Part shown: positions 33,201 through 42,952 of the stretch, piece after piece
Layout of the letters: every line of letters starts with the position of its first letter
Position numbering within the stretch: the stretch's first letter is position 1
Origin: Fluviicola sp.
GTDB taxonomy: Bacteria > Bacteroidota > Bacteroidia > Flavobacteriales_D > Crocinitomicaceae
NCBI GenBank assembly: GCA_002734085.1
Contig: NVXV01000011.1
Location: 1 to 64,000, forward strand
Length of the DNA stretch: 64,000 bases
Reading direction: 5' to 3'
Position numbers and translations under genes: made by a program
The notes under the pieces: generated by a model
Seen by the model: the letters and a program-made list of their open reading frames with translations, nothing else
The model's database searches: none
What the model was told of the DNA's origin: nothing

Positions 33201-33649
33201 TTATCAATGCTGTAAGTGTAAGGAGGTGTTCCTCCATTTGTAATAATTTCTACTTCACCATCATTATTTCCGAAAGTTGGATCTGTTGTATTGGCATTTG
33301 CTAACAAAGGATCAGGTTCTGTTATGTTTACTGTCGTAAGATCAGAACATGGGTTTCCCTGTACAAAAATTGTATATAAATCGGCACATAAATCTGAAAA
33401 CAAAATGGTTTCATTCTCATTAGTATAAGTATTTGAACTAATCGTATTACCTTGACTATCTTGTAAAGTAACAATATACGGACTTCCTGGACTTCCAGGG
33501 TTCAAATTTTCATACATATAAGCTATTGACCCATCACAGTCTCCGTTACAAGTTACCATCTCAGGTGTTCCTGACGAAGTTAGTTGGCATTGGCTGTTGG
33601 CGTTTAAGGTAAGTAGTATCGTAACAAATAGTAGTAGTGCAGTTTTCAT
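30284..33649 (-). CDS. SprB-repeat surface protein with type A T9SS sorting domain
   Basis: A 1121-aa secreted protein. A signal peptide (about 1-19) is followed by six consecutive units of about 165 aa. Each unit has a half beginning with a C-x-SCYxxCDG-like segment (variants VTCNGDCDGSI, VSCYGYCDGQI, TSCYEDCDGSI) and ending LCAGxYxVxVxDxxGC, then an SprB-type half (DATAGNNDGSAEVNVTGGTA-like, PYQYSID, VxDANGC). The last 80 residues (FSVYPNPATDQVTIEGEQ...LNGRIVYSN...GVYVVRVQIANGTFHTKIVRQ) are a type A T9SS sorting domain. SprB repeats occur in gliding adhesins, so a cell-surface adhesive role is likely. It is monocistronic. Confidence 0.93.
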   Translation of the reverse strand: MKTALLLFVTILLTLNANSQCQLTSSGTPEMVTCNGDCDGSIAYMYENLNPGSPGSPYIVTLQDSQGNTISSNTYTNENETILFSDLCADLYTIFVQGNPCSDLTTVNITEPDPLLANANTTDPTFGNNDGEVEIITNGGTPPYTYSIDNGSNFQSSNIFTGLPSGNYSVIIEDDNGCQQTVTFNLVDNTQCSLVLTSAPSAVSCYGYCDGQIDYFYQTGNPNPPYQVELIENGTVQQTITSNDPFGQGVFTDLCAGIYEVIVTDAQGCTYPNTISITEPPLLMVTNVSTTDATAGNSDGSATINVTGGTPSYMYSLNGGSFQSSNTFNGLEAGAYVVLVIDANGCPSNYTFIIQETPGCFFNLSANISNPISCYYDCDASIDYIFVGDANDPPFSIVLESNGNLIQSTTNPNQTVTGTFSGLCAGQYTITVMNSSGCSEVVTVTIENPDPITVIPSTIDATPGSNDGEIGVNVSGGTAPYQYSIDNQNSWQSSPTFTGLATGPYIVYVQDANGCIAFITVYVYESEGCEFFLTQNSLPTSCYEDCDGSIIYSFNDPGNNPDYLIELWQGNTVLDNTIVSGTNGGSGQFDNLCEGTYSIIITDVNGCSDTISSYVDSPDPLQIDSVDVIDATAGNNDGSAEVNVTGGTAPYQYSIDVGSNWQASNEFTGLAPGHYNVIVEDANGCTAVLCFTVNEDPGCTITTTLLETQQISCYAACDGILTYSYSDNDNNAPYTITLSENGNTVSTTTSSLSSSSGTFGNLCAGNYSVTVSNANGCASFASNYTLTQPDMLNVSVNVTDASTGNSNGTATVIVSGGTGQYSYSLDGVNFQTSNYFDSLSAGTYIAYVQDANGCSEIYTFLISENTQCNITLTSSSDQMVSCPGACNGVISFFFNDVNMNPPYTVFLTNANQPGNVVTQIFNSGNSGSGTFTNVCSGIYIVSVQDENGCESFNTIQVTEPPYFNISTSQVNPTIGNNDGSVTVNVTGGTGSYEYSIDQQSTWQTSNEFNNLGDGFYSFDVKDANSCSQVFCVVLKEDNDASLEEFSNNFSVYPNPATDQVTIEGEQPIDNIQIIDLNGRIVYSNKSNDNAININTTLWSKGVYVVRVQIANGTFHTKIVRQ

Positions 33650-33794
33650 TTTTATTATTTTAATTAGTTGTGTTCCAAACGAAAACCAATTTACAAGAGT
33701 TGCTTAAATTTCTTTTTAATTATTTAAGATGTTTGAATAATTTAGTACAAATCTAGATTTTAGAAAGTGAAAGTAACTTTTGAGGGAGCTTTAG

Positions 33795-34583
33795 TTAATT
33801 TAACTCTGATTTGAATTTAGTTTCATCAAAAGTTGTAAAAGAAATATGATCCTCGTATTTAATTAACCATTCATTTTCAATGGTAAATGAAGGAACGTTT
33901 TTAGCTGTAATTATTTCTTTACTATAATCATCAATAATAACGGTTGGATTTTCAGCAAACATTGCTATCATGCTACCTTCTATTATTTGACCATCAGGAG
34001 TTGAAATTGCAACTTTTTCTTTGAATCCACGCCACTCCATCGTAAAGTAAGTAGTATATCCATTTGGATAATCAAAATAATCCTTGTGCTTACATACCTT
34101 TATAGGAAATTGTATTCTATCCGTTTCACCTTCAATATCACCAGATAGCCCCCCTTTTGAATATACCAATCCTAATTCATCATCATAAATCTCTAGGCGA
34201 TATGTCTGAGAACCAACAGGACTAAAGTCAGGACTTATATTTATAGATGAACTACTATTTCGATCTATTGTTAAACTACCAACTTGTGTAGTGTTTCCAT
34301 TAATATCACCATATAATGAAGAAACGATTTGGGAACCTACGGGATATTGCTGTGCTTTAATATCTGTATGATATTCTCCCGATTTGAAATCAATTTTCAC
34401 GCCGTCATTACCAGAATTACCAATTTCTGAAACAACAACCTCATTACCAACTTTATTAATTTTCGCTTTTCCTTGTTTAAGATGAAACGAACCATAAGAA
34501 GTAAGATTATTCTGATCTTTACCTTGTGCAGTTGCAAATACTCCTGAAATGCAGACTACAATTAATAATGTGAACTTTTTCAT
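33795..34583 (-). CDS. secreted protein of unknown function
   Basis: A 262-aa protein with a signal peptide (MKKFTLLIVVCISGVFATAQG). The mature part is beta-rich: SGEYHTDIKAQQYPVGSQIV, SFDFSPVGSQTYRLEIYDDE-like strands, and a C-terminal ENEWLIKYEDHISFTTFDE. No domain is recognised and there is no lipobox or sorting domain. It lies alone between the SprB-like gene (145 bp apart) and the accessory region; nothing is known of its role. Confidence 0.75.
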   Translation of the reverse strand: MKKFTLLIVVCISGVFATAQGKDQNNLTSYGSFHLKQGKAKINKVGNEVVVSEIGNSGNDGVKIDFKSGEYHTDIKAQQYPVGSQIVSSLYGDINGNTTQVGSLTIDRNSSSSINISPDFSPVGSQTYRLEIYDDELGLVYSKGGLSGDIEGETDRIQFPIKVCKHKDYFDYPNGYTTYFTMEWRGFKEKVAISTPDGQIIEGSMIAMFAENPTVIIDDYSKEIITAKNVPSFTIENEWLIKYEDHISFTTFDETKFKSELN

Positions 34584-35148
34584 AATACTTAAAATTTAAT
34601 TTGCGCCCTACTTTTTTTTGAGGAGTGTTCGAGTCATTTTTTTCTCCCATTATAGCAATTATTTTTTAGTCAAAACGGTTTCTATTTTGCATCTACTACA
34701 CACACCATAAGCTGGCTAACTTTAAACCTTTTGGATATTTTTAGAATTGCACATAATATTTAGTGATTTTATTTGATAGTTAGTGTTTTAATAAGTTTCT
34801 TTTTATTATTTAGTGTATTGAAAGAAAGGTTACCTTCTATTGAAGTTTCATAATTATTTTGATGGATATTTGTTAAAAATATCTGCTTAAAAAATAATTT
34901 ACATTTATGTAGAAATATAGAAAGATAAGTTTTTAAACGAAAGGAGGCATCCTTTTCGAGCGTCCAGATCATATACCCAAGAGCCATAGAATTAAACGTA
35001 TAATCAACCTATTTGAATCTCTTGACACCTGATAACATGTTGTTTCATATATAATTATATTGTCTAAGAAAATAATTATCTTTGACATGGAATATAGTGC
35101 ATATAAAACACGTGCATTTTATTCGCTCATTGTGGTTAATTAAAAAAT
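34584..35148. other. 565-bp gap at the left edge of the GNAT cluster
   Basis: No convincing gene. A minus-strand open frame of 72 codons (34769-34987) has an unusual Phe/Lys/Asn-rich composition and no clear motif. No copy of the tRNA-Lys 3' end was found here, though a direct repeat would be expected if this were the far end of a tRNA-inserted island. A -7 box lies at 35077-35084. Confidence 0.6.
35077..35084 (+). promoter_or_regulatory. -7 promoter box for the GNAT cluster
   Basis: TATCTTTG, an exact TAnnTTTG match, 65 bp before the first acetyltransferase ATG. It is the only good box in front of the cluster. Confidence 0.5.
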
Positions 35149-35604
35149 ATGAAATTTAGAAAAACTACAAAGAATGATCTCCAAGCAATTGTACATATGA
35201 TTGCTGATGATGAATTTGGAAAGAAAAGAGAAAATTATAAAGTCCCATTACCATCTAAATATATAAAGGCTTTTGAAAATATTATCTCCGATTCCAACCA
35301 AGAATTAATAGTTGTGGAAAATGTTGATGCTGAGATTATTGGTACTTTTCAATTAATATTTATTCAATACTTAACCTATCAAGGAGGAATTAGAGCACAA
35401 TTAGAAGGTGTAAGAATTAGAAAGGATCAAAGAGGCTTGGGCATTGGAAACCATATGATTCATTGGGCAATAAAAAGAGCAAAAGAAAGAAACGCACATG
35501 TGCTACAGTTGACAACGGACAAGCAACGACCAAAAGCAATAAAATTCTACGAAGACTGCGGGTTTGTCGCCTCGCATCAAGGCATGAAAATACACCTGGA
35601 TTAA
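35149..35604 (+). CDS. GNAT-family N-acetyltransferase (cluster gene 1)
   Basis: A 151-aa single-domain cytoplasmic acetyltransferase. The acetyl-CoA pyrophosphate-binding motif A is GVRIRKDQRGLGIGNHMI (RGLGIG fits Q/RxxGxG/A), and motif B is KAIKFYEDCGFVASHQGMKI. Substrate unknown. It opens the nine-gene cluster; the next gene starts 11 nt after its stop. A second frame overlapping its 3' end is open but lacks homology, so the next gene is started at 35616. Confidence 0.9.
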   Translation: MKFRKTTKNDLQAIVHMIADDEFGKKRENYKVPLPSKYIKAFENIISDSNQELIVVENVDAEIIGTFQLIFIQYLTYQGGIRAQLEGVRIRKDQRGLGIGNHMIHWAIKRAKERNAHVLQLTTDKQRPKAIKFYEDCGFVASHQGMKIHLD

Positions 35605-35615
35605 ATAATTTTGAA

Positions 35616-36167
35616 ATGATAGTTAAAACAAATCAAATAAAAATTGTAAAATTAATCTCTGAAGATTCAAGAGATTATTTGAAACTAATTCGGGACAATA
35701 AAGATCGTTTGGTGAGGTATTTTCCTTTAACAACAAAGTCTGCTGATTCGTTTGACACAATAAAAGAAAGTGTTAAGTTGATAATCCAAAAGGCTGTAGA
35801 AAAAGAAGTTTTCTGTTTTTGTATTCGACATAATGAACTGCTGATAGGTTTATTTTTCATTAAGAGTATTGATTGGAAGCAACTTAAATGTGAATTTGCC
35901 TATTTCATAGATACCAATTACGAGAGTAAAGGGGTTACTTCATTTGTTTTCTCCAAAATGATAAATTTTTGTTTTGACAATCTTAAAATGAAGAAAATAT
36001 TTTTAAGAATTGACCCTTTAAACTATGCTAGTATCAGGATAGCAGAAAAAAAAGGGTTTAAAAAAATTAAGGTCGTACCCAATGACTTTAAAATAGAAAC
36101 GGGTGAATTAATTGATCTTATTCACTTTGAATTAATGTATACTAACTTTGCTTCTAATGAATTTTGA
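35616..36167 (+). CDS. RimJ/RimL-type GNAT acetyltransferase (cluster gene 2)
   Basis: A 183-aa acetyltransferase of the RimJ/RimL type (often acting on protein N-termini or small amines). The start at MIVKTNQIKIVKLI is preferred; the open frame continues upstream inside gene 1 but in basic, non-homologous sequence. Visible features are FAYFIDTNYESKGVTSFVFS (a degraded motif A, with Glu-Ser-Lys-Gly where QGxGxG is usual) and the RIDPLNYASIRIAEKKGFKK motif B. The weak motif A makes activity less certain. It overlaps the next gene by 11 nt. Confidence 0.85.
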   Translation: MIVKTNQIKIVKLISEDSRDYLKLIRDNKDRLVRYFPLTTKSADSFDTIKESVKLIIQKAVEKEVFCFCIRHNELLIGLFFIKSIDWKQLKCEFAYFIDTNYESKGVTSFVFSKMINFCFDNLKMKKIFLRIDPLNYASIRIAEKKGFKKIKVVPNDFKIETGELIDLIHFELMYTNFASNEF

Positions 36168-36735
36168 CAATCAGATAATTTTAGAAAACGACCTTATTAG
36201 TTTATCTCCGCTATCTCATTCACATCTTGACAAATTATTGCCATTTGTGCTTTCTAATCCGGATTTGTTAAAATATTCCCCCTCACCTTTTGGAACCACT
36301 AAAGCCTTTGAGGCTTATATAAAAAAGGCTATTTCAGCTCGAAATAAAAAGGAACGTTATCCATTTGTTATTTTTGATAAGAAATCTAATCAATATATTG
36401 GGAGCAGTAGTTATGGAAAATTTTCATTTGAAAATCAACGATTAGAAATAGGCTGGACTTGGATTTTTAAAGAATTTCAAGGTGCGGGAATAAATAGTCA
36501 AGCGAAGTTTCTTTTGCTAGACTATGCTTTCCACCAATTAAAAATGGTAAGAGTTGTGTTCAAAACTGATGTTCGCAATGTCGCCTCTAGAAAAGCTCTA
36601 GAAAAAATTGGAGCCACCCTTGAATGTATTTTAAGAAGTCACACAGTATTGCAAGATGGCTATAGAAGAGACACAGCTGTTTATAGTATTCTAAAGGAAG
36701 AATGGATCGAAATTTATAAAAGTCGCAAACTATGA
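36157..36735 (+). CDS. RimJ/RimL-type GNAT acetyltransferase (cluster gene 3)
   Basis: A 192-aa GNAT enzyme, start placed at MNFDNQIILEND (an ATG 9 nt earlier is possible). Motif A is WTWIFKEFQGAGINSQAKFL (QGAGIN) and motif B is DVRNVASRKALEKIGATLE, both well kept, followed by RSHTVLQDGYRRDTAVYSIL, typical of RimJ-like proteins. It overlaps gene 2 at its start by 11 nt and gene 4 by 4 nt (ATGA at 36732-36735), indicating coupled translation. Substrate unknown. Confidence 0.9.
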   Translation: MNFDNQIILENDLISLSPLSHSHLDKLLPFVLSNPDLLKYSPSPFGTTKAFEAYIKKAISARNKKERYPFVIFDKKSNQYIGSSSYGKFSFENQRLEIGWTWIFKEFQGAGINSQAKFLLLDYAFHQLKMVRVVFKTDVRNVASRKALEKIGATLECILRSHTVLQDGYRRDTAVYSILKEEWIEIYKSRKL

Positions 36736-37298
36736 ATTTTAAGGAAAGTATAGAGCTAAAATCAGCACGGACGGTTCTGAGAATTGTAATCGAAAATGAT
36801 TTAGAATTCATTCATAGTCTACATTCACTGAAGGAAACGGACAGATATAATACCTTGGGAATTCCTGCGGATGTGAGTGAAACAAAGAAAGTGCTTGATA
36901 AATGGTTAAGTGATTACAATGCATCTCCAATAGCGAGTTATACTTTTATCATTCAAGATGTAGTATCAGAAAAACCCATAGGAGTAATTGGCTTGAAAAT
37001 GGGGCATCCAAAATATAAACGAGCAGAAGTTTGGTTTAAATTACATAAAGATTTTTGGAGTCAAGGGTACGCCACCGAAGCCTTGAATATACTGTTGAAT
37101 TTTAGTTTCAACACCTTAGTTTTACACCGACTAGAGGCAGGATGTGCAGTTGATAATATCGGCTCCATAAAAGTATTGGAAAAAACGGGCTTTGTAAGGG
37201 AAGGAAGGTGTAGAAAAGTATTACCGCTAGAATCAGGTTGGTCTGACAATTATGAATATGCTATATTGGAAACTGATTACGCTGTGATTCAAGCATAA
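36732..37298 (+). CDS. RimJ/RimL-type GNAT acetyltransferase (cluster gene 4)
   Basis: A 188-aa GNAT enzyme. Motif A is WFKLHKDFWSQGYATEALNI (SQGYATEA is a perfect RimJ/RimL signature) and motif B is VDNIGSIKVLEKTGFVREG. It differs strongly from the two preceding acetyltransferases, so this is not a recent duplication. It begins within the ATGA overlap with gene 3; the methyltransferase gene follows after 11 nt. Confidence 0.9.
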   Translation: MNFKESIELKSARTVLRIVIENDLEFIHSLHSLKETDRYNTLGIPADVSETKKVLDKWLSDYNASPIASYTFIIQDVVSEKPIGVIGLKMGHPKYKRAEVWFKLHKDFWSQGYATEALNILLNFSFNTLVLHRLEAGCAVDNIGSIKVLEKTGFVREGRCRKVLPLESGWSDNYEYAILETDYAVIQA

Positions 37299-37309
37299 AA
37301 AATATTAGG

Positions 37310-37960
37310 ATGAAAATAATTTTAGATCAATCTGAATACTGGGATAGCGTGGCAAATGAAAAAACTTTTAATCATTTAATTGATTGGGATTTTCTACAAA
37401 AACATATAGAATCCACATCTAAGATATTGGATTTTGGATGTGGATACGGTAGGCTCTCAAACGAATTTTACCATAATGGTTTTCATAATATCATAGGGGT
37501 TGACAACTCAAAAAGAATGATTGATAGAGCTAAACAGTTAAATTCTCAAGTAAATTTTATGCATCTCTCACTTCCAAGTCTACCTTTTGAAAACAATACT
37601 TTTGATTTGATATGCCTTTTTGCAGTACTTACTTGTGTTCCAATAGAACAAGATCAACAAACGCTCATAAGCGAGTTAAAAAGGGTCTTAAGACCCAATG
37701 GCATCCTATATGTAAGTGACTTGCTTTTGAATGAGGATGAAAGAAACCTTAAACGTTACAATGCTTATGGTAGTGGTCCTTATGGAGTGTTTGAACTTCC
37801 CGAAGGGGGAGTGTTTAGACACCATTCTGAGGAATATTTAGAAAATCAACTAATGTCCTTTTTCAATATTCTTTATAGAAGATCATTTACAATTGAAACT
37901 ATGAATAAAAATCAATCTAAGGCTATTCAATTAGTTGGTGAACAAATTTCTAATAAATGA
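37310..37960 (+). CDS. class I SAM-dependent methyltransferase (cluster gene 5)
   Basis: A 216-aa methyltransferase. Motif I is ILDFGCGYGRLSNEFY (about 40-55), the acidic end of beta2 is IIGVDNSKRM, and motif post-I/II continues with FDLICLFAVLTCVP. The domain is of the methyltransferase_11/25 type acting on small molecules; substrate unknown. It ends in a 4-nt ATGA overlap with the next acetyltransferase, tying it to the cluster. Confidence 0.9.
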   Translation: MKIILDQSEYWDSVANEKTFNHLIDWDFLQKHIESTSKILDFGCGYGRLSNEFYHNGFHNIIGVDNSKRMIDRAKQLNSQVNFMHLSLPSLPFENNTFDLICLFAVLTCVPIEQDQQTLISELKRVLRPNGILYVSDLLLNEDERNLKRYNAYGSGPYGVFELPEGGVFRHHSEEYLENQLMSFFNILYRRSFTIETMNKNQSKAIQLVGEQISNK

Positions 37961-38499
37961 ACTTGAGTGTCAGAGAAGCTGGTTTTAATGATTTTAACTT
38001 GATTGTTCAGTATTTTCATTCAGCTAACAATGAATTTCTGTCTGAAATGGGCATTGATCATCTAAAAATACCAAATATTGATGTTTGGCAACAGGAACTA
38101 TCTTGTGAACTAAGCAAGCCTATAGCACGTAAAAATTACTATTATCTCATTTGGGAAGAATCATCAAAGCCAATTGGTCACTCAAACCTTAGTGGCATAG
38201 TATATGGTGAAAAAGCAAAAATTCATTTACACATTTGGACGAAAGGTCAAAGATTGAAAGGCGCTGGAAAAGAGCTGCTAAAAAAATCAATTAAGATATA
38301 TTTTGACCTTTTCGAACTTTCTGAAATAATTTGCGAGCCCATCTATTCAAATAAAGCACCTAATAAAACTTTGATTAAAATTGGTTTTGTACTTGAAAAA
38401 ACTTACGAAACAATTCCTGGTAGTATCAACTATTTTCAAAAAGTGAATAGATATGTACTAAACAAAAATGACTATGAAAAAAACATTATTTGTTTTTGA
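37957..38499 (+). CDS. GNAT-family N-acetyltransferase (cluster gene 6)
   Basis: A 180-aa GNAT-like protein. The acetyl-CoA site is less canonical: HIWTKGQRLKGAGKELLKKS (RLKGAG) serves as motif A, and YSNKAPNKTLIKIGFVLEKT as motif B. It is a fifth, divergent acetyltransferase in the same unit. It starts in the ATGA overlap with the methyltransferase and overlaps the HAD gene by 26 nt if that gene starts at 38474. Confidence 0.87.
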   Translation: MNLSVREAGFNDFNLIVQYFHSANNEFLSEMGIDHLKIPNIDVWQQELSCELSKPIARKNYYYLIWEESSKPIGHSNLSGIVYGEKAKIHLHIWTKGQRLKGAGKELLKKSIKIYFDLFELSEIICEPIYSNKAPNKTLIKIGFVLEKTYETIPGSINYFQKVNRYVLNKNDYEKNIICF

Positions 38500-39127
38500 T
38501 ATTGATGGAACCATAACTGATAGTGTGACACAACATCAATCGGCTTTCTACGAATCTTTAGAAGCATTCGGAATTAAAACGATAGATTCAAATTGGGGTG
38601 CTTACGCCCACCATACTGACAGTTATATTTTTAAAAGCAATTATGAAGATTATTTTGGTAAGCAAATGCGAGATGTTGATCTATTTCAGTTTGAAAGTTT
38701 AATACTCCACCATCTTTCATTAAAGTCAAGTATAAATGAAATCAGAGGAGCTTCAAGATTTTTAGAATTATTATCTGAAACAGGACAGGCCTATTGTTTT
38801 GCAACTGGCTCCTTGAAAAAACCTGCAATCAACAAATTGCAGCAAGCCAAAATTTCTATTAATGAAGGTCTATTAGCAACTGCCAACGATAATTTCAGCA
38901 GGGAAGATATAGTTTTAAACGTTATTGAAAAAGCTAAAAAATTATATCAACTGGATTCCTTTCAAAAAATTGTTTCATTTGGAGATGGAATTTGGGATTT
39001 AAAAACTGCAAAGAACTTAAACTTATCTTTCGTTTCAATAGGAAACAAAAGTGCACATCTTTTAAAGGAAGGTGCAGATAATCATTTCAATGATTTTAAT
39101 ACGATTCAAATAGACAATTTCATATGA
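38474..39127 (+). CDS. HAD-superfamily hydrolase (cluster gene 7)
   Basis: About 217 aa, started at MKKTLFVFDIDGTITDS; an ATG 6 nt earlier is possible. Motif I DIDGTITDS carries the nucleophile Asp, motif II is CFATGSLKKPAI, and motif III/IV is VSFGDGIWDLKTAKN, so it is a complete phosphoglycolate-phosphatase-like HAD enzyme (phosphomonoesterase). A cap region lies between motifs I and II. Substrate unknown. It overlaps both neighbours (26 nt upstream, 4 nt downstream). Confidence 0.88.
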   Translation: MKKTLFVFDIDGTITDSVTQHQSAFYESLEAFGIKTIDSNWGAYAHHTDSYIFKSNYEDYFGKQMRDVDLFQFESLILHHLSLKSSINEIRGASRFLELLSETGQAYCFATGSLKKPAINKLQQAKISINEGLLATANDNFSREDIVLNVIEKAKKLYQLDSFQKIVSFGDGIWDLKTAKNLNLSFVSIGNKSAHLLKEGADNHFNDFNTIQIDNFI

Positions 39128-39681
39128 AAAAAAAGAAACTTACAAATTTAACACCACTTTCCTCCTTGGCAATATCTTCAGGAATTAATACCTGGGAAGA
39201 CCTTATTGAATATGTTAAAAATTTACCATACGCCAGAAATAGTAAAAGAGATGATTTTTCTCTTGTTTTGACTGAGAAAAAAGGTAGCTGCAGTTCTAAG
39301 CATGCCCTTTTAAAAATAATTGCAGACGAGAATGAAATACAAGATGTAAAACTTATCCTTGCAATTTATAAAATGAACAGTCAAAATACTCCAGGAATCG
39401 GAATGGTTCTTATTGAACAAGGATTAGATTATGTTCCAGAAGCACATTGCTTACTTAAAATAAATGGCGAGTATTTTGACTATACATCATCTCAATCTGC
39501 TTTTAAACAGATTGAAGGAGATATTTTATCATTAAAAAAAATTCAGCCAAACTTTGTAATATGTGAAAAAATAAACTTTCATCAAGACTTCATAAAAGAA
39601 TGGTTGAAGCAAGCAAATCTAAATTTAGATTTTAAAAAAATATGGTTGATTCGAGAAAATTGTATTAATAATTTAGCATGA
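39124..39681 (+). CDS. transglutaminase-like fold protein (cluster gene 8)
   Basis: A 185-aa protein with no named family that I recognise, but with a papain/transglutaminase-type triad order: Cys56 in KKGSCSSKHALLK, His108 in VPEAHCLLKING and Asp119 in EYFDYTSS. This spacing (about 52 then 11) is that of transglutaminase-core proteins. It could be a peptidase, amidase or acyltransferase; the calling is structural inference. It starts in an ATGA overlap with the HAD gene; the next gene follows after 3 nt. Confidence 0.75.
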   Translation: MKKKKLTNLTPLSSLAISSGINTWEDLIEYVKNLPYARNSKRDDFSLVLTEKKGSCSSKHALLKIIADENEIQDVKLILAIYKMNSQNTPGIGMVLIEQGLDYVPEAHCLLKINGEYFDYTSSQSAFKQIEGDILSLKKIQPNFVICEKINFHQDFIKEWLKQANLNLDFKKIWLIRENCINNLA

Positions 39682-39684
39682 CGT

Positions 39685-39990
39685 ATGTTTGTAATTATAT
39701 ATAAGTTTAAAGTAAAGAATGGGTCGGAAGCTGAATTTGTTAAATACTGGAAGCTCTCAACAGAAATTTTCGTCAAGCATCAAGGAAGTTTAGGATCTCG
39801 ACTTCATAAAGAAAGTGACAACACTTATATTGCTTATGCCCAATGGTCAAATGAAGAAAATTTTAATAACTCAGGTGCTCAATTATCCAAAAGATCAATA
39901 AAAGTAATTGAAAGAATGCGTAACTCATGTAATAATATCGAGATTTTACATAGAATGCATTGTGTAAAAGACATGTTAATAAATAACTAA
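39685..39990 (+). CDS. ABM-domain (antibiotic biosynthesis monooxygenase-like) protein (cluster gene 9)
   Basis: A 101-aa ferredoxin-like ABM protein (MFVIIYKFKVKNGSEAEFVKYW, HQGSLGSRLHKESDNTYIAYAQW). Small ABM proteins are cofactor-free monooxygenases or heme or quinol-type enzymes; which one is not clear here. It is the last gene of the cluster. About 120 bp without a gene separates it from the DUF2975 gene, which has its own promoter box. Confidence 0.85.
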   Translation: MFVIIYKFKVKNGSEAEFVKYWKLSTEIFVKHQGSLGSRLHKESDNTYIAYAQWSNEENFNNSGAQLSKRSIKVIERMRNSCNNIEILHRMHCVKDMLINN

Positions 39991-40109
39991 CCTTTGAGAT
40001 CAAATACATAAAGAGTGAAACCAGAGTGGCTAATTCGTGTTTGAAAAATCCTCGAACTTGAAATTTCTTTACTAAGAAATAATAATTTTATGTTTAACAT
40101 AAAATATAT

Positions 40110-40117
40110 TATCTTTG
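40110..40117 (+). promoter_or_regulatory. -7 promoter box for the DUF2975/XRE pair
   Basis: TATCTTTG, an exact TAnnTTTG match, 20 bp before the ATG at 40138. It rules out the in-frame ATG at 40090 as start, because transcription would begin after it. Confidence 0.55.
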
Positions 40118-40137
40118 GGATAAAAATAAAGAAAAAC

Positions 40138-40695
40138 ATGTTCCTGAAAACTTCTCTCATCCTTACTAAAGTAGTATTGATTATTACTATAGCTATCGCT
40201 TTAGTGTTAATCACTGGAATAATTTATTGGCATATATCACCAAATAGCTACGACCTAGTAGAACTAACCCATCAGTTTAAAGCAGAGTATGGTATTGGAG
40301 ATATACAAGTTCATCTAAATGCACCTAGTACAAGAGTGGATAAAGTATTCATTAGTGAGTTAAATGCAGGTACGATGTACTGGTTGTTTTTTCGAGCCAT
40401 GTTCTTTATCGGAATAAACCTACTAATCCTTCTGAAAATTGTCGGGATACTTCGATCGATTCGAACTATAAGGACTTTTTATGACACCAATATCAGAAAT
40501 CTGAAATCGATTGGGTTTTATGCTGCGATTGCCGCTGTGATGAGTAGTTTCAATTTTGGTCTTTGGCGCAGTGAATGGCAGGTTAATTTTACTATTCCCT
40601 GGGCAGTTATTATGGTTTCTGTTATTGCATTTGTACTTGCAGAGGTGTTTACGGAAGGTAAACAATTGCTGGAAGATAAAAACATGATTATATGA
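40138..40695 (+). CDS. DUF2975-type membrane protein
   Basis: About 185 aa with four hydrophobic segments: residues 5-30, 80-105, 120-140 and 145-170 approximately (IITIAIALVLITGIIYW, AMFFIGINLLILLKIVGIL, AAIAAVMSSFNFG, IPWAVIMVSVIAFVLAEVF). The C-terminal EVFTEGKQLLEDKNMII is typical of DUF2975 proteins (relatives of Bacillus YoaS). Function unknown. The 4-nt overlap with the following XRE regulator gene is the standard arrangement of this pair, which suggests a membrane-regulated transcription factor system. Confidence 0.88.
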   Translation: MFLKTSLILTKVVLIITIAIALVLITGIIYWHISPNSYDLVELTHQFKAEYGIGDIQVHLNAPSTRVDKVFISELNAGTMYWLFFRAMFFIGINLLILLKIVGILRSIRTIRTFYDTNIRNLKSIGFYAAIAAVMSSFNFGLWRSEWQVNFTIPWAVIMVSVIAFVLAEVFTEGKQLLEDKNMII

Positions 40696-40895
40696 AGATC
40701 ATTGTAAACCTCGATGTAGTTATGGCTAAACGAAAAATGAAACTCAAAGATCTATCTGAAGCTGTGGGCATATCCATGACGAATTTATCACTACTTAAAA
40801 CGGGAAAGGCAAAGGGTATAAGGTTTAGTACCCTACAAGCTATATGTGAAGCTTTGGATTGTCAGCCAGGCGATATTCTTGAATATAAAAAATGA
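40692..40895 (+). CDS. XRE-family HTH regulator (YozG-like)
   Basis: A 67-aa single-domain DNA-binding protein (MKIIVNLDVVMAKRKMKLKDLSEAVGISMTNLSLLKTGKAKGI...LQAICEALDCQPGDILEYKK), typical of the small XRE repressors paired with DUF2975 proteins. The helix-turn-helix spans about residues 17-45. It starts in an ATGA overlap with the DUF2975 gene. Its target may be its own promoter or the neighbouring genes; this is inferred only. Confidence 0.9.
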   Translation: MKIIVNLDVVMAKRKMKLKDLSEAVGISMTNLSLLKTGKAKGIRFSTLQAICEALDCQPGDILEYKK

Positions 40896-40992
40896 TATAA
40901 AGCTGGAATGAATCGACCGGGTGCTGAAAATAATCACAAACTATTACTCAATATCATTCATTGGTTAGATCCTAAATTTAAAAATAACAATC

Positions 40993-41610
40993 ATGATTAA
41001 CGAAATAATCTCCACAACGCTGCAAATTTTAGTAATTGCACTCATTCCTTTTGTTGTATTCTTGATTAAAAAGAAAAAAGCAAGAGGCTTCTTTAGTTAT
41101 ATAGGCTTTAAACGGTCAAATACCAAGGCGAATTTAACTGCTGTTGGTTTATCTCTGGTACTGTTTCTACCACCCTTAATCATGGTTTTGTTAAATGAGG
41201 AATTCAGGGAAATAATGCTTGATCCACAAACTACGACAGGTAAATTCAGGGAAATGAGTTTTTCAATATCAAGTCTAATTTTGATCTTAATCAAAGCAGT
41301 ATTCGAAACAGCTCTCGCTGAGGAAATCCTCTTTCGAGGATTTACAGCTAAAAGGCTGATAGCTGTCACCAATTATCAAATAGGTAATCTTTTACAAGCA
41401 GCTATTTTTGGTATCATACATTGCTTACTGTTTATGACCATTTCTTCTAACCCAATTTTTCTAGTATTTATTGGACTTTTCACAACAGTAGGTGCCTATT
41501 TGATGGTTTTTATAAATGAAAAAATGGCAAACGGTAGCATTCTCCCTGGCTGGATTATGCATGCTACTGCTAATCTAATGTCCTATTGTTTTATAGGTTT
41601 TTTAGTGTAA
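40993..41610 (+). CDS. CPBP-family intramembrane glutamic endopeptidase
   Basis: A 205-aa membrane protease of the CAAX/CPBP (Abi) family. The catalytic motif EEILFRGFTAKRL (about residues 100-112) and the later His in GIIHCLLF (about 140) are present, and WIMHATANLMSY supplies the C-terminal conserved His/Asn region. Five or six hydrophobic segments are visible. Roles of bacterial CPBP proteins include peptide maturation, immunity to bacteriocins and prenyl-protein processing. It lies 97 bp after the XRE gene and faces the integrase remnant. Confidence 0.9.
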   Translation: MINEIISTTLQILVIALIPFVVFLIKKKKARGFFSYIGFKRSNTKANLTAVGLSLVLFLPPLIMVLLNEEFREIMLDPQTTTGKFREMSFSISSLILILIKAVFETALAEEILFRGFTAKRLIAVTNYQIGNLLQAAIFGIIHCLLFMTISSNPIFLVFIGLFTTVGAYLMVFINEKMANGSILPGWIMHATANLMSYCFIGFLV

Positions 41611-41794
41611 AATTGTATATAGTTACCTAAAATAATTTGATTGTGTTGTAACTTTTTCGTTTAATTCATCCATTAAATTTTGAAAAGTAAGTGTTCATAA
41701 TTAGTGTTTTAAAGTTCTGAAGAACCTTCATGAATAGGTGAGTTGAAAGTTATCCGGAAGCTTAGTTATTATGGATGGTAGTACGGATAAAATG

Positions 41795-42276
41795 TTAATG
41801 GGTTATTTTGGGGTAGGCGAATGGGTTGGATGGAATCCAATCTAAACCAACGGACATGTTCATGATCTTCTTTAGGTTTTTGATGTACTTATGTGCTGTA
41901 TTGATTTGTAGGTTGGGGCTTACTTGAAGTCTTTGCCGGAGATAATATCCTTTATTCGACGAGCTGTGACTTCTTCGCCAGAGGCGATGAGTGTATTGAA
42001 AGTTTCTTGAACTTTGCCGCGTATCATGTCTAAGAAGCTATTTATTTGAATAGCGTTAGTGGCTCGGTTTTTTACTCGCTGTGATTTTGCATCCCAACTT
42101 TTTTCATCCACAAATCTATGTGTGGAAAGTTCTGCACGTTTACCATCTACTGTAATACGTAAGTAGATTGGGAATTCGTTGCGTTTGTTTTTTCTTGTTT
42201 TCTGCCCCCAAAACAGGACAGAAAAAGATTCAGTTCTTGTCTTTTTCATCTGTGACGATTTTAAGTTGTTAAACAT
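41795..42276 (-). pseudogene. broken tyrosine recombinase (integrase) remnant
   Basis: The first 118 codons (42276 down to 41920) encode the N-terminal arm-binding domain of a Bacteroidota tyrosine recombinase (FSVLFWGQKTRKNKRNEFPI, YLRITVDGKRAELSTHRFV, KSWDAKSQRVKN). A stop then follows, but in another frame homology continues: NTAHKYIKNLKKIMNMSVGL and DWIPSNPFAYPKITH, the core-binding domain, to a second stop at 41795. The catalytic domain with its R-H-R-Y residues is not found in 41611-41794. It is therefore frameshifted, internally deleted and truncated. It lies 230 bp from tRNA-Lys, a typical integration site. Confidence 0.8.
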
Positions 42277-42344
42277 CTAATTTTTGTAATTGAATCTTAA
42301 AATTTTAGATGCCTACAGATGAATAGGAGCAGGGGGGCTGACCT

Positions 42345-42387
42345 AATTCGGTTAACAAAACTACAACAAAAGGTTGTTAACCGAATT
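42345..42387. repeat. 14-bp perfect inverted repeat near the integrase start
   Basis: AATTCGGTTAACAA (42345-42358) and TTGTTAACCGAATT (42374-42387) with a 15-nt spacer, 70 bp upstream of the broken integrase start. No T-run follows, so it looks less like a terminator than a protein-binding or recombination site. Confidence 0.6.
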
Positions 42388-42478
42388 GTTGTAATATTCT
42401 TTGTTATTTGATACTATTTATTGATGTGAGGATAATTAGTTGAAAAACCTAAACCATTAAATTTGAGGGGTATTAATG

Positions 42479-42506
42479 AAAAAAGCCTCTCGAATGAGAG
42501 GCTTTT
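42479..42506 (-). terminator. terminator after tRNA-Lys
   Basis: Stem AAAAGCCTCTC / GAGAGGCTTTT with a 4-nt loop, and a further T-run on the minus strand. Confidence 0.8.
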
Positions 42507-42508
42507 AG

Positions 42509-42581
42509 TGATCCCGCTGAGGCTCGAACTCAGGACCCACGCCTTAAAAGGGCGTTGCTCTACCAACTGAGCTACGGAATC
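42509..42581 (-). tRNA. tRNA-Lys (TTT)
   Basis: Complete cloverleaf on the minus strand: acceptor GATTCCG / CGGGATC (one G-U pair), D arm GCTC/GAGC, anticodon arm ACGCC-CTTTTAA-GGCGT giving anticodon TTT, and a T arm with loop TTCGAGC. Discriminator A; CCA is not encoded. The 3' end faces the integrase remnant. Confidence 0.95.
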
Positions 42582-42653
42582 ATTTATTATTTCGCTTTTT
42601 CGATAGACTGAATAACCGTTGTTTTTCGTTTTTGTTTATCGCGTTTGCGGGTG

Positions 42654-42683
42654 CAAATATAGTGGCTTCTTTTTTATTGGCAA
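42654..42683 (-). promoter_or_regulatory. promoter for tRNA-Lys
   Basis: On the minus strand, TTG (-33, 42681-42683) is 19 nt from TATATTTG (-7, 42654-42661), the consensus spacing for Bacteroidota promoters. It lies about 70 bp upstream of the tRNA. The rest of 42582-42980 holds no supported gene. Confidence 0.65.
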
Positions 42684-42952
42684 GTGGTTTTGAATGTTTT
42701 TTTATCTTTTTTTCTAAATTTTATCAAATGATATTGATTTTCAGAACTTCAGTCGTGATAATTTCTATCACCTTGTTCTTATTAAGAATTAAAAATAAAT
42801 TTTTTAAATTTAAGTAGGTTTAGCAATATTAAGTGGATATTTCAGGGGAATTATTGAATATCTCAAATTTTTTGCTACATTATATGGAGTATAAAAAAGA
42901 ATTTATTCGAAAGTCTAGCCTTGAAATTTATAAGGTTTATTATTCTTCGAGT

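Follow-up and report, generated by a model that had tools for sequence, protein, structure and literature searches.

Nine genes lie head to tail on the forward strand between positions 35149 and 39990 of the 64,000-nucleotide stretch of Fluviicola sp. DNA analysed here (the window), as read from the open reading frame list and the sequence. We put a probability of roughly 0.7 on the reading that this array is a lineage-specific mosaic operon of independent modifying enzymes, integron-like but free of attC sites. The nine genes are not a conserved set. The initial annotation had described nine genes on one strand at this place, five GNATs, a methyltransferase, a HAD protein and an ABM protein among them; the reading frames were confirmed there, and Pfam backs all of these assignments, g6 being borderline. 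The features of the locus are:

35077-35084, + strand: possible -7 promoter box TATCTTTG; weak, with a -33 spacing that does not fit
35149-35604, + strand: g1, GNAT (PF00583, Pfam), 151 aa; nearest relative with a solved structure, 1z4e (3e-51)
35616-36167, + strand: g2, GNAT (PF13302; ORF list and Pfam), 183 aa
36157-36735, + strand: g3, GNAT (PF13302, Pfam), 192 aa
36732-37298, + strand: g4, GNAT (PF13302/PF13420, RimL/SpeG-like, Pfam), 188 aa
37310-37960, + strand: g5, class I SAM-dependent methyltransferase (PF08241, Pfam), 216 aa
37957-38499, + strand: g6, GNAT, borderline at the PF00583 and PF13302 cut-offs (Pfam), 180 aa
38468-39127, + strand: g7, HAD-superfamily phosphatase-like protein (Pfam; DIDGT and GDG motifs), 219 aa
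39124-39681, + strand: g8, transglutaminase-like protein (invariant Cys56-His108-Asp119; fold likeness), 185 aa
39685-39990, + strand: g9, ABM-domain protein (antibiotic biosynthesis monooxygenase-like, Pfam), 101 aa
40138-40695, + strand: membrane protein resembling DUF2975, under the Pfam cut-off; -7-like box at 40110
41920-42276, - strand: tyrosine recombinase remnant, Arm-DNA-bind_5 domain only, 118 aa
42508-42581, - strand: tRNA-Lys(ttt), an integration site in two same-genus genomes

The junctions within the array are tight. Counted from the sequence, there are three gaps (11, 11 and 3 nt), three 4-nt ATGA overlaps (g3/g4, g5/g6 and g7/g8) and two longer overlaps, of 11 nt at g2/g3 and of 26 or 32 nt at g6/g7 depending on the start codon; the gaps of at most 11 nt and the two longer overlaps described earlier thus stand, and the four ATGA overlaps become three. 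The start of g2 was taken as the ATG at 35616, where the open reading frame list begins g2 at a TTG within g1, and g7 carries the DIDGT and GDG motifs of HAD proteins. This spacing and these overlaps suggest that the nine genes are co-transcribed, and they probably form one operon. Downstream, the DUF2975-like gene overlaps an HTH_26 gene (40692-40895) through an ATGA; these two are probably a unit apart from the array and are outside the nine-gene count.

The single promoter box previously placed in front of the array survives in part. The match at 35077-35084 fits the flavobacterial -7 consensus, but the TTG preceding it stands at 14 nt, against the 17-23 nt required for -33 spacing, and -7 boxes are common: the window has 51 of them on its + strand. 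One of the six full flavobacterial-type promoter matches on that strand spans the g8/g9 junction (39660-39691). Between 34600 and 42700 no terminator-like site was found on the + strand; two lie on the - strand, a number at chance level.

Comparison with related genomes (up to 298) showed homologues of the array genes to be mostly dispersed. Seven families were searched across genomes (g1, g3 and g5 to g9), with g1, g3 and g5 at E 1e-15 only. At the cut-offs used, g3, g5, g6, g7, g8 and g9 have no match in any of nine same-genus genomes, and g1 has one 74% relative among them, alone at another site. The best g7 and g8 relatives among the searched genomes are both in one genome, on different contigs. 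Among the loci examined (29 of 43 further places for g3; 29 of 61 for g9, plus one in genome G143; all 17 for g1, all 8 for g6 and all 5 for g7; 13 for g8, 11 from the genome search and 2 from a contig search), close similarity unites at most two of the nine proteins in any other genome. Higher numbers are reached only by including GNATs and methyltransferases that are loosely related. Genes at these loci were called with a simple in-house ORF caller, which missed g1 in loci L178 and L181; at L071 and L074, the additional GNAT matches overlap with the g6 relative itself. Proline dehydrogenase performed poorly as a synteny anchor and was dropped.

Plasmid records matched by tblastn numbered 267 for g3, 124 for g5, 55 for g1, 8 each for g7 and g9, seven for g2, one for g8 (Aureibacter) and none for g6, and a search of viral contigs with g6 confirmed no relative. 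As DNA, the whole array matched one record only, with 6% coverage, at g8. None of the plasmid neighbourhoods inspected in Priestia, Vibrio THAF190c, Pantoea, Rhodovulum and Aureibacter (g8) holds several of the nine in one array. On the Rhodovulum plasmid, an ABM gene lies 3.7 kb away from a HAD gene.

Some combinations nevertheless recur, and the prediction that genes scattered and never adjacent would mean random accretion came out divided: the genes are mostly scattered, but they are sometimes adjacent and once fused. Relatives of g3 and then g1 adjoin in three congeneric species, with gaps of 4-12 nt, a pairing that is not genus-wide (g1 lacks an adjoining g3 in G061, and g3 occurs without g1 in G145), and relatives of g3 and g9 are fused in one reading frame in G186. 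By Pfam, G129 carries the run GNAT-HAD-methyltransferase-VOC-DUF-GNAT, the last being the g3 relative, which is a loose instance of the co-occurrence of at least four families elsewhere that had been proposed as a check. G065 carries the run GNAT-GNAT-VOC-ABM, and on the Aureibacter plasmid a methyltransferase gene overlaps a HAD gene by 1 nt. Relative to G169, G129 has four extra genes between a dioxygenase-like gene and the VOC gene, and DNA homology between the two restarts 13 nt ahead of the VOC start codon. Among immediate same-strand neighbours of relatives (five families), PF00583 was found in 8 of 73, against 0.44 expected from the GNAT rate of this genome with 3500 genes assumed; the eight matches are not independent, as at least six appear to derive from two genera, and locus L099 is absent from the count for want of an ORF-caller match.

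The concentration of acetyltransferases in the array is not due to chance. The union of two genome searches gave about 21 GNAT loci genome-wide, five of them in the array, and five within nine genes arose in 0 of 400,000 random placements (about 21 loci, 3500 genes assumed). The array GNATs belong to the same superfamily as known modifying enzymes (streptothricin, aminoglycoside and bleomycin acetyltransferases; RimL and SpeG) and give weak profile matches to them, but all NCBIfam scores listed are far under the cut-offs and do not assign substrates. Across the nine proteins, no listed NCBIfam match reaches its cut-off, those to known antibiotic-resistance acetyltransferases included; for g5 this covers 25 of 50 matches. 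Nine of ten proteins have no match in PADLOC anti-phage defence profiles; g5 matches mads_2 across part of the profile, plausibly as a generic methyltransferase. Readings as a resistance, defence or biosynthetic cluster found no profile support and were dropped.

At E 0.01, neither Pfam nor NCBIfam gives a match for the g8 protein, and its profile has no match among PDB sequences at E 0.1. Cys56, His108 and Asp119 are invariant in an alignment of g8 with 12 relatives, from which the G015 relative (L016) was left out because its start was mis-called. The structure model is confident (mean pLDDT 93) and bears a modest resemblance to transglutaminase-like and arylamine-NAT folds. The earlier description of a transglutaminase-like protein fits the invariant triad and the modest fold likeness. 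The contig search added two further relatives, in an uncultured Aquimarina and a Saprospiraceae MAG, neither of them near any other of the nine. The conserved Cys-His-Asp triad, together with the lack of a Pfam or NCBIfam match, makes the g8 family a concrete candidate enzyme.

Six of the nine genes (g2 and g5 to g9) have a GC content of 0.278-0.318, below that of all 27 reference genes in the window (0.319-0.392); array codon scores are ordinary (0.072-0.205, compared with a reference mean of 0.147, sd 0.040 and lowest value of 0.028). The tRNA-Lys lies about 2.5 kb from the array. In the two of nine same-genus genomes whose tRNA-Lys surroundings were inspected, long integrases stand at the same tRNA, of 441 aa in G002 (64% identity to the remnant) and 419 aa in G004 (31%). 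The array resembles tRNA-borne genomic islands of tyrosine-recombinase elements in its position beside a tRNA and an integrase remnant, but differs from them in that the integrase is truncated and an attachment repeat and left border were not found. Since the region 33600-42800 showed no recognisable bounding repeat and the tRNA-Lys flank has no convincing second copy in the window, delivery of the array by an element is unproven.

The tight run of small-molecule-type modifying enzymes seen by the initial annotation is supported, but joint action on one compound is not, as the combinations differ from genome to genome. A dedicated tailoring or detoxification pathway, in which the nine enzymes would process a single compound or peptide sequentially or jointly, is in our view unlikely. 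The tight overlaps suggest co-translation, and the g3-g9 fusion and the g3-g1 pairs point to a possible functional link within some pairs. On the other hand, no examined locus has more than two of the nine by close similarity, single-gene relatives are usually alone or with other partners, and Pfam detected no NRPS, PKS or RiPP core in the nine proteins, the DUF2975-like protein or the ten flanking proteins (28.7-50.5 kb), in agreement with the earlier statement that a core synthase is missing. At the opposite extreme, the genes could be mere neighbours, unrelated, with their own promoters and no common role. The promoter match across the g8/g9 junction and the poor leading promoter would fit this, but three 4-nt and two longer overlaps with gaps of at most 11 nt over nine genes make it very improbable.

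Two other histories could have produced such an array. Like the sedentary chromosomal integron arrays of Vibrio, for example, it consists of unrelated single-gene enzymes of cassette-type families in one orientation, and it might be a decayed integron, once an array of cassettes but now deprived of attC sites and integrase. In Vibrio campbellii, one array whose genes are separated by attC-like repeats, GNATs among them, contains a relative of g5 (34%), and attC-like repeats also flank a relative of g1 (47%), with the strict core pattern on one side only. For one Vibrio array, the table passage of PMC1382264 gives six rows of acetyltransferases (seven cassettes), one histone and one maltose acetyltransferase, and also an ABM protein and a beta-phosphoglucomutase. 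Unlike integron arrays, however, the nine genes have overlapping reading frames with no attC-like spacers; attC remnants would not fit into the short gaps and overlaps, no direct repeats of at least 40 nt occur in 33600-42800 and a simple pattern found no attC-like core pairs. The ten flanking proteins scanned include no integron integrase, the sole recombinase-like protein being the Arm-DNA-bind_5 remnant, and direct descent from the Vibrio cassettes would require higher identities than those seen. Integron membership was dropped on the absence of attC-like sites, and decay from an integron is highly unlikely. Alternatively, one GNAT could have been duplicated in tandem in place, with later divergence and insertion of the other genes, and three of the five (g2, g3 and g4) do share PF13302 as best domain. 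The acetyltransferases are mutually divergent, as first described: BLASTP clearly pairs only g2 with g4, at 22%, while best identities to proteins of other genomes reach 74% for g1, 51% for g3 and 47% for g6. We dropped in-place duplication, now barely credible, on these identities; with g1, g3 and g6 closest to proteins of different genomes, the GNATs appear to be of independent descent.

We therefore return to the lineage-specific mosaic operon. Its genes may have been captured singly or a few at once, without promoters, by a route and in an order that we can only infer, and stacked head to tail at a site near a tRNA-Lys used for integration in relatives, where they would be read and translated jointly. 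Each would be a single-gene enzyme, presumably with its own small-molecule or peptide substrate; the reactions proposed are acetyl transfer, methyl transfer, phosphate removal, Cys-His-Asp acyl transfer or hydrolysis and an ABM-type step. The array would then act like an integron cassette array, as one expression slot served by an interchangeable pool of modifying genes, and its role may be protective. Other horizontally accreted operons are likewise lineage-specific and tight, show no common descent within the cluster and have most families missing from close relatives; this array differs in being unusually GNAT-rich, in having parts that turn up again in further runs within the order, and in the one whole-gene block difference among those runs (G129/G169).

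A broader interpretation is distinctly doubtful, but may be worth stating. This order could possess an attC-independent equivalent of the integron, in which whole promoterless genes are inserted and removed at reading-frame boundaries in tight operons, giving species-specific arrays whose acetyltransferase, methyltransferase, HAD, VOC and ABM genes come from one shared pool; the array in the window would be a GNAT-rich product and G129/G169 one trace. No attC-free array of this kind is described among the literature matches listed (titles and abstract beginnings). If the main reading of a mosaic operon is right, the integron idea of one slot for swappable enzyme genes also works without attC sites, which would help to account for the way in which modifying enzymes accumulate in environmental bacteria. 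The array is also a warning against taking such clusters for pathways, as adjacency here may mirror a shared expression slot more than a shared substrate.

Gene calling bore out the same-strand array of nine ORFs described in the initial annotation:

35149-39990, + strand: nine ORFs, g1 to g9, where g1, g2, g3, g4 and g6 are GNATs, g5 a class I methyltransferase, g7 a HAD protein, g8 transglutaminase-like and g9 an ABM protein

Read from the sequence, the junctions from g1 to g9 are, in order, +11, -11, -4, +11, -4, -26 or -32, -4 and +3 nt, with three ATGA overlaps where four had been counted. In flavobacterial promoters, the consensus places 17-23 nt between the TTG and the box. The promoter-like box proposed in front of the array is present (TATCTTTG, at 35077), but the TTG lies 14 nt upstream of it and the promoter call is therefore weak. 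An identical box is found at 40110, ahead of the DUF2975-like gene, probably the first of a separate unit. At 40138-41610, the genes for this membrane protein and a Cro/C1-type HTH_26 regulator share an ATGA overlap, and a CPBP/Rce1-like protease adjoins.

The clustering of GNATs in the array is not due to chance. Profile searches of the source genome (4.03 Mb, 36 contigs) gave 20 matches to PF00583 and eight over the cut-off to PF13302, four of these inside the array. Combined, these make 21 GNAT loci by our count, five of them in the array, and 0 of 400000 random placements (gene number assumed to be 3500) put five within nine consecutive genes. Pairwise comparison upheld the mutual divergence of the five GNATs, none being a recent duplicate of another. 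In six of the nine array genes, GC falls below that of all 27 reference genes in the window; codon choice in these six is ordinary.

Judged by gene content across genomes, the nine-gene array is not a conserved system. Searches covered g1, g3 and g5 to g9, and counts exclude the source genome. Matches at 1e-15 occur in 42/298 genomes for g3, 17/298 for g1 and 0/298 for g5; at 1e-6, in 58/298 for g9 and 8/298 for g6; and in 5/118 for g7 and 11/58 for g8. At the cut-offs used, the nine same-genus genomes contain one relative of g1 (74%), isolated amid hypothetical genes, and none of g3, g5, g6, g7, g8 or g9. Among the genomes searched, one (G016) holds the best relatives of both g7 and g8, on different contigs.

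Parts of the array do recur elsewhere in other combinations. When the nine genes and three downstream genes were compared by tblastn with 58 loci that contain a g3 or g9 relative, g1 adjoined g3 at 3/29 g3 loci and g9 adjoined g3 at 1/29, and a g4-like GNAT lay near g9 at 2/29 g9 loci; the remaining loci had no other array member. Among 17 g1 loci, three include g3 and one (genome G078) has another GNAT overlapping the g1 relative; in larger stretches, three species of a single genus have g3 followed by g1. One of five g7 relatives directly adjoins a GNAT. No other array member adjoins the relatives at eight g6 loci or 13 g8 loci, and a weak g4 match lies ~4 kb from the g8 relative of L015. 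In genome G186, a single 311-aa ORF (L138, 3477-4412) joins an N-terminal g3-type GNAT to a g9-type ABM part, the latter detected by BLAST while Pfam calls the GNAT part only.

Longer runs called by Pfam include GNAT-GNAT-VOC-ABM in G065 and GNAT-HAD-methyltransferase-VOC-DUF-GNAT in G129. The G129 genes stand 2-6 nt apart or overlap, by 4 and 11 nt; the HAD resembles g7 (42%) and the final GNAT g3 (39%). The same set is present in G017, where the contig end truncates the first GNAT and a gene of 680 aa separates the DUF from the g3-type GNAT. An Aureibacter plasmid carries a methyltransferase and a g7-type HAD that overlap by 1 nt, and GNATs lie 1.4 and 4.3 kb beyond them. The methyltransferases differ: g5 has no match to that of G129 at 1e-3 and is close to proteins of Priestia (43%) and V. 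campbellii (34%). In G169, VOC-DUF-GNAT stands directly behind a gene that we read as dioxygenase-like, whereas in G129 a 662-aa gene, GNAT, HAD and methyltransferase intervene. DNA homology between the two restarts 13 nt ahead of the VOC start codon, and thus the difference keeps to gene boundaries.

Carbon-nitrogen hydrolases also recur beside array relatives in three genomes:

L042: next to a g7 relative
L072: next to a g6 relative
L142: fused to a GNAT, next to a g9 relative

The first two are 47% alike. PF00583 was found in 8/73 immediate same-strand neighbours of g3, g9, g6, g7 and g8 relatives against 0.44 expected, although these matches are not independent, at least six apparently coming from two genera.

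Integron cassette arrays carry genes of the same types. Among cassette products that can be recognised, acetyltransferases and methylases are frequent (PMC3856429), and a table in PMC1382264 includes a Vibrio array with several acetyltransferases, an ABM protein and beta-phosphoglucomutase. The V. campbellii relative of g5 lies in an array split by 136-nt repeats with TAACAA/GCGTTA-type ends, alongside genes for a NUDIX hydrolase, a glutathione transferase and GNATs. A g1 relative from a second V. campbellii record lies between similar repeats, the strict core pattern being found at just one flank. In contrast to such arrays with their attC sites, a direct-repeat search and a simple core pattern found no attC-like sites in the window array; it thus works like an integron array but is not one. 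Cassettes are described as turning sedentary once their site is lost (a passage in PMC1382264).

The array ends ~2.5 kb from a tRNA-Lys gene, with a 118-aa recombinase remnant between. A shikimate kinase gene lies near this tRNA-Lys and adjoins tRNA-Lys genes in the two same-genus genomes viewed, G002 and G004. On the other side of tRNA-Lys, G002 has a 441-aa integrase (64% to the remnant) and G004 one of 419 aa (31%):

L229, 6058-7383: long integrase at tRNA-Lys
L230, 10247-11506: long integrase at tRNA-Lys

The site therefore serves for integration in this genus. Because searches at the array and at tRNA-Lys recognised no bounding repeat, it is by inference that we have the array arriving there with an integrase-bearing element. 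In L230, genes next to the integrase look to us like an RND metal-efflux operon. Also in G002 (contig C30; L220, L221), two copies of a block that holds tRNA-Gln and an integrase of 431 aa lie close to the end of the contig at a distance of 26.3 kb, representing either a tandem element or assembly redundancy.

At L014 (7168-9747) a g8 relative is first in a tight five-gene run with genes that we read as SnoaL-like, WYL/HTH-like, GyrI-like and DUF1801-like. At L020, L021 and L023, a 462-463-aa peptidase-like gene (our reading) and a small lipoprotein-like gene precede the g8 relative; this order, kept in three genomes, suggests a role there with peptides or the envelope. Three of the neighbours scanned, presumably these lipoprotein-like genes, match LEA_2. 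Each enzyme type in the array modifies small molecules or peptides, and we favour the reading that the activities would be independent, together serving protection or metabolite repair.
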